In this document: in pieces, positions 6,629 to 11,128 of the stretch | Numbering within the stretch: the stretch's first letter is position 1 | How the letters are laid out: each line of letters starts with the position of its first letter | Source of the DNA: Mucilaginibacter segetis | GTDB lineage: Bacteria; Bacteroidota; Bacteroidia; Sphingobacteriales; Sphingobacteriaceae | Assembly (NCBI RefSeq): GCF_016522075.1 | Contig: NZ_JAEHFW010000002.1 | Coordinates: 434,001-498,000, forward strand | DNA: 64,000 nt | Reading direction: 5' to 3' | Notes under the pieces: model-generated | Databases searched by the model: none | What the model was told of the DNA's origin: nothing | What the model saw: the letters and a program-made list of their open reading frames with translations, nothing else | Made by a program: the position numbers and the translations under genes

Positions 6629-7264
6629 TTAATTTTCTGAATTACGACTTTTATCGCCCTCCGTTATTGATTTTATTAAACTCCCCCAAGCCAATGGATT
6701 TAATAAAGGGTTTGTAATAGAGTGCGAATTAACAATGTTATTGTGCATAGCCTGGGCATTAGCAGATTGGATTTCCTGGCCGTCGCGCGGTAAAGTGTTA
6801 CTAAGTGCCGCCAATGAGGCCCTGCTTACATTCTTACGAGCAATTTCAAGATCATCATCAGCTAATTTAGCTGCAATAAAATCACGTCGGAATTCATCAG
6901 TTGTAGCCCATGGAAAAACCCGGAATGTTGGGAGATTATTTATCTGCGGCGTTATCTTTATTTTTGCAACATAGCTTTTATTGCTCACATTTGCCGGTAT
7001 TACTACAGTAACGGGGGCAAAACCGATAGCAGTAAACCTGATGGTATCCTGTTCATGGGCCACAAACGAGAAGTATCCACGGTAATTGGCTATGGTGGTA
7101 GTATTATGGTAGCTGATATTTGTGACACTTACATACGGCACTACAGATGTGGTGCTATCAGCATTATATATTACACCGGTAAACTGCACTAAAGGCTTTT
7201 CTTGTTGCTGGGCAAAAACCGATAGTGATGCAAATAAAAATAATATGCCTATTAATTTTTTCAT
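6629..7264 (-). CDS. Secreted carboxypeptidase-regulatory-like domain protein
   Basis: 211 residues with a clear signal peptide (MKKLIGILFLFASLSVFAQ, cleavage near residue 19). Residues about 25-110 form a carboxypeptidase D regulatory-like beta-sandwich (FTGVIYNADSTTSVVPYVSV... NYRGYFSFVAHEQDTIRFTAIGF), the fold that also begins TonB-dependent receptors. The remaining C-terminal part is helical and unassigned. Such stand-alone proteins are common in the Bacteroidota periplasm or outer membrane and have no proven role. A second protein of this kind is encoded at 26945-27694. Confidence 0.75.
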   Translation of the reverse strand: MKKLIGILFLFASLSVFAQQQEKPLVQFTGVIYNADSTTSVVPYVSVTNISYHNTTTIANYRGYFSFVAHEQDTIRFTAIGFAPVTVVIPANVSNKSYVAKIKITPQINNLPTFRVFPWATTDEFRRDFIAAKLADDDLEIARKNVSRASLAALSNTLPRDGQEIQSANAQAMHNNIVNSHSITNPLLNPLAWGSLIKSITEGDKSRNSEN

Positions 7265-8881: not shown

Positions 8882-11128
8882 ATGCGCCGTATCAATATCA
8901 ATTCCAAATATATCCGTATTGCTGGCATAGTAGCAGCCTTAGTTATAGTAATAGTGCTGATTGGTGGTTATATTGCTTATTCAAAACGCGAAGTGCTGCT
9001 GCAAAAGGCTATTTACAAAGCTAAAACAAAAGCAAAGAGGGATTATAATTTAGATGTAAAAATAGGTTCAGCCCATTTTACGGGCATAAGTACCGTGGCC
9101 TTTTCGGACATCTCAATAATTCCGTATCAGCGCGATAGTTTGATGTTTGTTAAAAATTTTACGGTCAGCGTAAAGCTGTTACCTCTGATTTTTGGAAATA
9201 TAAAGTTAGCTGACGTTACTCTCCAAAATGGCCATTTAAGTTTAACCAGTATTAAAGGAGTTAAAAACTTCGACTTTCTTTTTAAAAAGAAAAAGGACTC
9301 TACTGCAACTAAAAACAAAGTAGATCTTTCTGTCCTTTCCAACAATCTGATCAATGAAGTTTTATATAAAATTCCCGATAATCTGTCGCTAAAAAACTTT
9401 ATGATAAGTTTTAGAGATGATAGTACTAAGCTAAAACTGCTGGCCCAAACAGCAATAATTAACGATGGCCAATTAACATCAACTATTAATGTTGATAATG
9501 GAGCTGCTATCTGGCATTTTGCAGGATTAATGCATCCATCGGACAAGGATATTGACGTAAAGCTCTTTGCCGATGGGAAAAAGGTAGAACTACCAATTAT
9601 AGAAAAGAAATTCCGATTAAAACTTAATTTTGATACCCTCACCACCCGCTTAACTAAGGTTAGTAATGGCGGTGGAGAAACTAAAATATATAGTTACTTT
9701 GCTGTTCGGAATTTATTAATAAACCACCCTGCTTTATCGGTAAGCAATATAGTTATCCCCAATGGATCAATAGATGCTAATATTTTTGTAGGAGAAAATT
9801 ATTTATCACTTGATAGCTCATCAGTTGTTCATCTTAAAAAGATAACAGCAAATCCTTACATCAAATACACGCTAAACCCTGTTAAAATTTACGAATTAAA
9901 AATCAATACCGGATGGCAAAATGCACAGGATCTTTTTGATTCATTTCCAGATGGCATGTTTGAATCCTTAGATGGGATGAAAGTTGCCGGAAAACTAAAT
10001 TATAATCTGAATTTGTTTCTCAATTCCGCTCATGTTGACGATGTTGTTTTCGATTCCAGGTTGGAAAAACAGAATTTTAAAATACTCAAATACGGAAAAA
10101 CAGACCTTAATAAACTCAACAGCTCTTTTGTATACGTTCCCTATGAAAAAGGGAAGGCTATGTCTCCTCATATTATCGGACCATCGAACCCGGAGTTTAC
10201 ACCCTTGCAAAATATAGCTCCCGATTTACGTAATGCCGTAATGACTGCAGAAGACCCCTCCTTTTACAGTAATCATGGGTTTGTTGAAGAATCAATCCGA
10301 AAATCAATAGCTACTGATTTTAAAGATAAAAAATTCAAACGTGGTGGCAGTACCATATCAATGCAACTGGTAAAAAACGCTTTCTTGAGTCGCAATAAAA
10401 CACTTTCAAGAAAGATAGAGGAAATACTGATAGTTTGGCTGATAGAAAACAACCAGATCATGAGTAAAAACAGGATGCTTGAAGTTTACTTTAACATTAT
10501 TGAATGGGGTAGAAACATTTACGGCATAAGTGAAGCTTCGCATTATTATTTTGGGAAGGCTCCTTCACAACTTACTTTGGGTGAAAGCATTTACCTCGCC
10601 AGTATTGTACCTAATCCAAAGGCGGGTTTATACGCTTTTCAGCCGGATGGAACTTTGCGGCAGGGTTTACATGGGTACTTTAACCTAATTGGCCGGCTTA
10701 TGGCAAGCAAAGGACTTACGCAAAGAGATTCTAATGCTTATGGCTTTTACAACGTTCGTTTGCGGGAGGCCTTGCGAAGGGAAGCCCCGGCCGACACCAC
10801 ACTGGCCGATAGTTTAATGATGCAGCTTAATGACGATGGGCAATTACCTGCATTTGATGAGGCTAAACGTCCTTCTTTTTTTCAGCGTTTACTTGGCAAA
10901 AAAGATACTTCTGCTGCAGCCAAAGCTGAGGCTAAAATAAAGGAAACTGATGAGATGATCAAAAATCGACTTAAACAGGAAATTGAGCAACTTAAAAATG
11001 ACTATGATTATAAAATAGATCATATTGATACTGCCGGAAAAACGAAAAAAGAGATACGACAAGAAAAAAGAAGATTGAAAAAAGAAGAAAAGGATAAAGA
11101 AAACACATTAAAAGACCGGATGCCGTAG
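8882..11128 (+). CDS. AsmA-like domain fused to GT51 peptidoglycan glycosyltransferase
   Basis: 748 residues. One N-terminal membrane anchor (about 12-32) is followed by an AsmA/TamB-like periplasmic start (YNLDVKIGSAHFTGISTVAFSDI, then FTVSVKLLPLIFGNIKLADV) and a long beta-rich region to about 430. Residues about 440-620 are a family 51 glycosyltransferase: TAEDPSFYSNHG with the catalytic Glu (near 456), RGGSTISMQLVKNAFL (near 486-501), and MLEVYFNIIEWG (near 532). There is no transpeptidase domain, so it should polymerise lipid II into glycan strands without cross-linking them. The C-terminus (about 690-748) is a Lys/Glu-rich coiled coil. The GT51 call is firm; the AsmA-like call rests on sequence pattern only. 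Confidence 0.88.
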   Translation: MRRININSKYIRIAGIVAALVIVIVLIGGYIAYSKREVLLQKAIYKAKTKAKRDYNLDVKIGSAHFTGISTVAFSDISIIPYQRDSLMFVKNFTVSVKLLPLIFGNIKLADVTLQNGHLSLTSIKGVKNFDFLFKKKKDSTATKNKVDLSVLSNNLINEVLYKIPDNLSLKNFMISFRDDSTKLKLLAQTAIINDGQLTSTINVDNGAAIWHFAGLMHPSDKDIDVKLFADGKKVELPIIEKKFRLKLNFDTLTTRLTKVSNGGGETKIYSYFAVRNLLINHPALSVSNIVIPNGSIDANIFVGENYLSLDSSSVVHLKKITANPYIKYTLNPVKIYELKINTGWQNAQDLFDSFPDGMFESLDGMKVAGKLNYNLNLFLNSAHVDDVVFDSRLEKQNFKILKYGKTDLNKLNSSFVYVPYEKGKAMSPHIIGPSNPEFTPLQNIAPDLRNAVMTAEDPSFYSNHGFVEESIRKSIATDFKDKKFKRGGSTISMQLVKNAFLSRNKTLSRKIEEILIVWLIENNQIMSKNRMLEVYFNIIEWGRNIYGISEASHYYFGKAPSQLTLGESIYLASIVPNPKAGLYAFQPDGTLRQGLHGYFNLIGRLMASKGLTQRDSNAYGFYNVRLREALRREAPADTTLADSLMMQLNDDGQLPAFDEAKRPSFFQRLLGKKDTSAAAKAEAKIKETDEMIKNRLKQEIEQLKNDYDYKIDHIDTAGKTKKEIRQEKRRLKKEEKDKENTLKDRMP

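Follow-up and report, generated by a model that had tools for sequence, protein, structure and literature searches.

A putative cell-wall polymerase and a predicted lipid-transfer groove were found joined in one protein chain in Mucilaginibacter segetis, in the 64,000-nucleotide stretch of contig NZ_JAEHFW010000002.1 that was analysed as a whole (hereafter the window). The gene is a single open reading frame (ORF) at 8882-11128 on the forward strand, which starts with ATG and runs through 748 codons with no internal stop; its product, called the fusion below, combines a predicted membrane anchor, an N-terminal region related to AsmA-like proteins and a GT51 peptidoglycan glycosyltransferase domain (Table 1). 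We tentatively read the fusion as an inner-membrane-anchored, monofunctional lipid II polymerase that belongs to a GT51 subfamily of its own and whose lipid may be handled by its own short AsmA-type groove.

A predicted AsmA-like groove in front of a GT51 domain

A chance open frame or misjoined genes could be ruled out, because both domains share one ORF in all 123 loci compared, in which set one locus (L177) is broken by a frame change and another (L085) ends at a contig edge, and because 35 of 37 same-genus genomes hold a near full-length match. The own genome is counted among these 35, and the two genomes without the fusion are 58% and 61% complete. The first-pass annotation of this DNA, made from the sequence letters, had proposed that an AsmA/TamB-type region is fused to GT51 in one polypeptide, and this proposal is borne out by the 748-amino-acid (aa) ORF, by the profiles of its relatives and by fold matches.

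The kinship of the N-terminal region emerged through those relatives. Among 12 same-genus sequences, Pfam DUF748 was matched in eight and AsmA in five (E up to 1); among 37 aligned diverse relatives, DUF748 was matched in 24, AsmA in 10 and YhdP in four (E up to 0.1), with best E-values of 3.3e-8, 1.6e-7 and 4.3e-4, respectively. The superfamily profiles AsmA, DUF748, YhdP and TamB were therefore reached via relatives, at weak to moderate E-values, and not by the window protein, which, lying below the Pfam AsmA and DUF748 cut-offs, is assigned to the superfamily and not to those Pfam families. When run against the own genome, the N-terminal profile retrieved, besides the fusion itself, one ORF of 1509 codons (E 9.8e-13) and one of 1723 codons (E 2.2e-12); of these two, one passes PF05170.

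Structural comparison pointed the same way. The fusion was modelled by AlphaFold2 with the 37 sequences (pLDDT 85.6, pTM 0.72), a first model having been weaker (pLDDT 69.8). Foldseek searches of the PDB with the 37-sequence model returned LPD-3 (2.3e-6, probability 1.00) and TamB (2.6e-3, probability 0.54) as well as GT51 structures, and the first model matched the Atg2 N-terminus (1.7e-3, probability 1.00); with VIA-align, 151 residues could be aligned to Vps13 (Z 8.2, rmsd 4.7) and 150 to LPD-3 (Z 7.8, rmsd 5.3). Hydrophobic alternation along the predicted strands was 1.97 versus a shuffled mean of 1.21, a value reached by two of 2000 shuffles, and this overall alternation together with the lipid-transfer fold matches suggests that the modelled groove is a real one. 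An unrelated beta fold was accordingly rejected on the relatives' profile matches and Foldseek: AsmA, TamB or chorein-like matches, on whose presence the first-pass annotation had staked its claim, were found as DUF748, AsmA and YhdP among profiles and as LPD-3, TamB and Atg2 among structures. By profile and model, the N-terminal region thus belongs to the AsmA-like/bridge-like lipid-transfer superfamily, with a predicted anchor helix and a chorein-like groove. Kinship with leucine-rich repeats was also rejected: the N-terminal profile did retrieve repeat proteins from the PDB sequences, 4psj with a whole-sequence E of 6.3e-8, but the best match covers just positions 351-370, the SLPxGxF box, and no single stretch passed by itself; no AsmA-like entries surfaced in that search of PDB sequences.

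In the model, the anchor (mean hydropathy 1.97 over residues 12-33 in the 37 relatives) is followed by a second helix, which we take to resemble the start of chorein-N/AsmA proteins, then by a groove of about 16-19 strands and some 350-390 residues, and the beta-rich region is joined to GT51 through residues 404-434. As beta-strands are spaced by about 4.8 Å, the groove would reach roughly 80-90 Å, a length that probably falls short of crossing the periplasm; the coupling of glycan synthesis to an envelope bridge, as previously suggested for this protein, is therefore unsupported as stated, the groove of 350-390 residues standing against TamB-like ORFs of 1509 and 1723 codons in the same genome. 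The fusion shares the anchor helix, the chorein-like start and the beta groove with the AsmA-like proteins AsmA, TamB, YhdP and YdbH, but its groove is shorter and leads into an enzyme domain, where those proteins have further groove or contact the outer membrane. The bridge-like lipid-transfer proteins LPD-3/BLTP1, Vps13 and Atg2 have the same fold as that predicted for its N-terminal region; they are eukaryotic, much longer and without a catalytic domain.

Conservation was unevenly distributed along the chain, with 1.5-1.9 bits of information per column in the anchor and the groove up to residue 347, and 2.66 bits at residues 348-372 (the AxxFFxSLPxGxF box), 2.17 at 373-405, 2.37 at 406-434 and 3.03 in GT51. 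The groove end and the junction are hence the best-conserved parts outside GT51, and so strong a constraint on the groove end and the enzyme joint makes us prefer a working link to a loose tether. The long, charged, helix-predicted C-terminal tail occurs in this genus and near relatives, and is absent in most of the 37 aligned members.

The GT51 domain and its subfamily

The GT51 domain was recognised by PF00912 (Transgly; E 2.7e-44, 151.2 bits versus a cut-off of 27, residues 435-581), by a match to the PDB GT51 chain 3nb6 (3e-21) and by VIA-align to SaMGT 3vmt_A (Z 14.6, 212 aligned, rmsd 3.4). Transgly was the only family above its cut-off in the Pfam scan of the 748-aa protein, so that no transpeptidase domain is seen, in agreement with the first-pass annotation. 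Its further statement that the GT51 motifs are intact stood for GGSTIxxQL, which reads GGSTISMQL, and failed for EDxxFxxH: the literal EDxxFxxHxG is absent and the protein reads EDPSFYSNHG, with Asn464 at the place of SaMGT His107 and the His one residue later. Of the 123 GT51 domains from fusions (119 of them distinct; two or more genomes had been entered twice), 117 have His at this place (113 of the distinct ones), and Asn is also present there in five of 16 MtgA-type domains, the host's own included. Being shared with these MtgA-type domains, Asn464 is unlikely to kill the enzyme, and, as the curated model is matched and the catalytic-type residues are present, it is read as variation within the family and not as exclusion from it.

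Thirteen positions named here, E457, D458, G466, S490, T491, Q495, K498, N499, R510, K511, E514, Y536 and N538, were invariant in 123 of 123 fusions. A dead enzyme was rejected on this invariance of the core catalytic-type residues, and the fusion GT51 is, judged by its sequence, a putative lipid II polymerase with these residues intact. Part of the assignment of roles to GT51 residues rests on work with PBP1b. For SaMGT, PMC6053601 lists Asp101, His107, Gly109 and Asp111 in motif I and reports that Asp101Asn or Gln136Glu abolished polymerisation. The Asp corresponding to SaMGT Asp111 was found in 16 of 16 MtgA-type domains, in seven of eight long GT51 proteins (726-778 aa, called class A by length alone) and in one of 123 fusions, and its absence is, from the aligned sequences, a hallmark of the fusion subfamily. 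Position 494 is Met in all 123 fusions, Gln in all 16 MtgA-type domains and Met in two of the eight long proteins.

The best NCBIfam match was TIGR02070, the mono_pep_trsgly equivalog, whose cut-off of 182.65 bits was not reached (141.9 bits), and the fusion is for this reason not filed as MtgA. MtgA has one membrane anchor, and like it the fusion has one anchor and GT51 without a transpeptidase, MtgA being also its nearest clade when the tree is rooted on long GT51 proteins; the MtgA-type ORFs (n = 16, 215-286 aa) are, however, too short for a groove domain, and the fusion differs from them in its separate GT51 clade, the mostly missing motif I Asp, Met494 and the score below the TIGR02070 cut-off. 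An MtgA with a long N-terminus was thus rejected on the missed equivalog cut-off and the separate clade. With class A penicillin-binding proteins the fusion shares GT51 sequence and fold, whereas no transpeptidase domain was detected in it and a large beta domain precedes its GT51. The host genome contains five GT51 genes, namely the fusion, the MtgA-type gene and three with frames of 755-796 codons; the MtgA-type gene (G000:C3:270235-270726, L003) has 242 codons and Asn at the motif I His (ENHGF). Residues 444-647 of the fusion also match, at 3.3e-12, phrog_33002, a phage family of 765 positions whose function is unknown, so GT51-like sequence seems to occur in a phage protein family.

A tree was built from 89 GT51 domains, with 65 fusions left after thinning at 78% identity, 16 MtgA-type domains and eight long ones, the bootstrap being not fully settled. 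The fusions formed one clade (99/99) with a long stem of 0.68, consistent at the sequence level with a single origin; with the root placed on the long GT51 proteins, this clade adjoined the MtgA type (split 97/62). As the fusion rows of the tree had been gathered via the N-terminal profile, and most of the 123 loci via that profile or the whole protein, the tree alone is blind to unfused members, and a search with the GT51 part only served as an independent check. In 197 genomes it gave 58 places of at least 184 bits, one per genome, in ORFs of 567-765 codons, and the next best hit was a 258-codon MtgA-type ORF at 132.6 bits. Fifty-one of the 58 genomes match the N-terminal profile A2, and the remaining seven match profile A4 at 1.8e-12 or lower, mainly over the last third of the groove, with a weak match or none in their first half. 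An N-terminal region of this kind thus accompanies 58 of 58, and the GT51 subfamily was never seen without such a domain in these 197 genomes.

The distribution check that had been proposed for the fusion showed it in nearly all of the same-genus genomes and spread over Bacteroidota. The nearest genus-named loci compared were of Mucilaginibacter, with 63% and 67% identity. Within the class, 98 of 395 genomes match profile A2, of which eight do so only via ORFs of 800-1690 codons that resemble stand-alone AsmA/TamB proteins; in one more, G375, the match is confined to a contig end of 132 codons. In many distant members the alignment is limited to the later part of the profile. Among the other classes of the phylum, seven genomes had fusion-length matches, and six of the six examined hold both domains in one ORF. 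Named matches, drawn from the best 80 of 556 confirmed stretches with a coverage of Bacteroidota/Chlorobiota, include among those listed Flavobacterium, Sphingobacterium, Pedobacter, Pontibacter, Rufibacter, Bacteroidales bins and one Chlorobiales bin; the latter and genome G658 have the same GT51 domain. Two interrupted copies were observed: in Sphingobacterium alimentarium (L177, 3983-6022) the fusion is split over adjacent ORFs of 178 and 496 aa and looks either frame-broken or affected by a sequencing error, and one same-genus match (L034, genome G011) has a single in-frame TAA inside the aligned stretch.

Table 1. Layout of the fusion gene and its protein; positions are those of the window
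Feature	Residues	Position	Strand	Basis
Whole fusion ORF, 748 aa	1-748	8882..11128	+	both domains share one ORF in 123/123 loci, window included
Predicted N-terminal transmembrane anchor helix	8-34	8903..8983	+	helix in model
Second helix, running into the groove	36-55	8987..9046	+	model
AsmA/TamB-like beta groove (predicted)	57-403	9050..10090	+	relatives' DUF748/AsmA/YhdP matches, Foldseek, strand hydrophobic alternation
Conserved groove end and GT51 junction, from the AxxFFxSLPxGxF box onward	348-434	9923..10183	+	column information
GT51 peptidoglycan glycosyltransferase domain	435-600	10184..10681	+	PF00912, PDB GT51 chain, VIA-align
GT51 motif I, EDPSFYSNHG, Asn at the usual His	457-466	10250..10279	+	
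GT51 motif II, RGGSTISMQLVKN	487-499	10340..10378	+	
GT51 motif III, RKIEE, with second catalytic-type Glu514	510-514	10409..10423	+	
Charged C-terminal tail	620-748	10739..11125	+	low confidence at about 640-678; predicted long helices 676-713 and 722-746

Possible roles of the groove

In the account that we favour, the anchor would keep the groove's N-terminal mouth against the inner membrane on its periplasmic side. There the groove would take up or steady a lipid tail, most likely the undecaprenyl chain that belongs to lipid II, to the growing glycan or to the released carrier, and would present it to the GT51 jaw at its far end; GT51 would then polymerise lipid II into uncrosslinked glycan, which other enzymes would crosslink. 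We infer the lipid in the groove, its identity and its delivery to the jaw, and hold this account as possible, with somewhat more confidence than any of the others below.

Several points weigh against it. Taken alone, the window protein matched neither Pfam AsmA (PF05170) nor DUF748 (PF05359) at E up to 1, and in the three that were scanned among the seven distant fusions recognised by profile A4, Pfam finds only Transgly. The N-terminal matches of VIA-align include beta-barrels (porins, VDAC and BamA) at Z 7-9, so near in Z to Vps13 and LPD-3 that VIA-align alone is indecisive and the fold is settled by Foldseek and the profiles. Hydrophobic alternation is weak in four of 16 strands (109-124, 167-179, 183-194 and 389-403), the last of which adjoins the junction. 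Because the motif I Asp is lost and Asn464 stands in for His, lipid II handling may differ in the fusion. Its neighbours, which depend on the lineage, include no recognised peptidoglycan genes in the loci compared, and GT51 enzymes meet lipid II directly in the membrane, without a carrier.

The strongest competitor, less probable but to be taken seriously, is that the AsmA-like region is a rigid arm or docking surface with no functional lipid binding, which positions an ordinary MtgA-like polymerase. The weakly alternating strands would suit such an arm, as would the GT51 jaw surface, which resembles that of other GT51 proteins (the hydrophobicity of the jaw flap and motif III being about equal to that of MtgA-type and long GT51 proteins), the MtgA-type gene kept in the same genome and a groove body more variable than the junction and GT51, as expected if shape and end mainly matter. 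Against a mere arm speak the overall strand alternation and the lipid-transfer fold matches, which suggest a real groove, and a second AsmA-like gene that is coupled to the fusion in one lineage.

This coupling was seen in the small-genome lineage f43/g46 (L248-L253 and L255-L257), where the fusion overlaps a downstream AsmA/DUF748-like ORF on the same strand in six of six genomes. The downstream ORF matches the groove profile at 3.3e-6 or better and measures 763-777 aa in three genomes and 471-491 aa in a fourth (L249/L255), being incomplete in the sequence stretches of the other two; Pfam DUF748 was found in it in five of five genomes scanned, above the cut-off (50) only in L248/L256. The overlap hints, as no other genomic feature does, at cooperation between the fusion and other AsmA-like proteins.

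A bolder version of lipid handling, which we consider unlikely, makes the groove a conduit that lifts lipid II from the inner membrane to a GT51 some 80-90 Å away or returns the spent carrier. If true, polymerisation of the glycan would take place away from the membrane surface, at the existing wall or close to it, and the fusion would be a bridge-like protein that moves a lipid-linked precursor while being physically coupled to its polymerase.

Also unlikely is the explanation nearest to the first-pass annotation, in which the groove, by itself or together with a longer AsmA-like partner, moves phospholipid towards the outer membrane and GT51 makes glycan at the same spot, keeping wall and outer-membrane growth in pace. 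It can draw on the E. coli AsmA-like proteins, which are thought, according to PMC8593681, to carry phospholipids in a hydrophobic groove, and on the overlapping gene of f43/g46 at its 763-777 aa in three genomes. The TamB-like ORFs in the same genome, however, are about four times as long as the groove of the fusion, which terminates in GT51, not in an outer-membrane contact, and no second ORF matching the groove profile (E 0.01) was found in the 123 loci, a set to which f43/g46 does not belong, the broken L177 excepted.

Least probable of all, a GT51 that has ceased to polymerise lipid II, and now either uses a different undecaprenyl-linked glycan as substrate or serves as a module for binding lipid II, would fit the motif I Asp lost in 122 of 123 fusions, the Met494 that sets them apart from the MtgA type (yet occurs in two long GT51 proteins), the long clade stem and the missed equivalog cut-off, but the two catalytic-type Glu are invariant, as are the remaining core residues, which argues against a dead domain.

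Gene neighbourhood and significance

Gene order around the fusion varied, with no gene neighbourhood conserved across the loci compared. Upstream in the window and divergent lies a Mrp/NUBPL-type ATPase gene (PF10609), as in nine of 11 Sphingobacterium loci; in its stead, genes named from their sequence starts were found upstream as RadA-like in 18 of 28 Flavobacterium loci and as PurB-like in seven of seven Pontibacter and three of three Rufibacter loci. A nitroreductase gene and a response-regulator gene lie downstream in the window, and a promoter scan gave 12 hits versus 11.9 expected. In L256, a methyltransferase-like gene is located just upstream of the fusion. Elsewhere in the window, beside a deformylase gene, positions 6629-7264 encode a protein of 211 aa that matched no Pfam family at 1e-5; its own family recurs in nine of the 123 loci, window included.

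No description of a joined AsmA-like/GT51 protein was found in the literature searched, which had bioRxiv and most subscription papers outside its scope; both halves are thus of known kinds, and the joined protein is apparently undescribed in that literature. PMC12045153 counts seven AsmA-like proteins in F. johnsoniae and lists five, and it may include the fusion without saying so, its main text containing 'transglycosyl' nowhere and 'glycosyl' once, in another context.

It is an open question by what means AsmA-like proteins select and transport their lipids, and likewise how the growth of the wall is matched to that of lipids and membranes in Gram-negative bacteria. The fusion unites a predicted lipid groove with a putative wall polymerase in a single conserved protein that occurs in tractable genera, Flavobacterium and Sphingobacterium among them, and groove mutants of this one protein could directly probe AsmA-type handling of a lipid-linked sugar. 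If the groove works as proposed, the pairing would tie lipid movement to wall synthesis.

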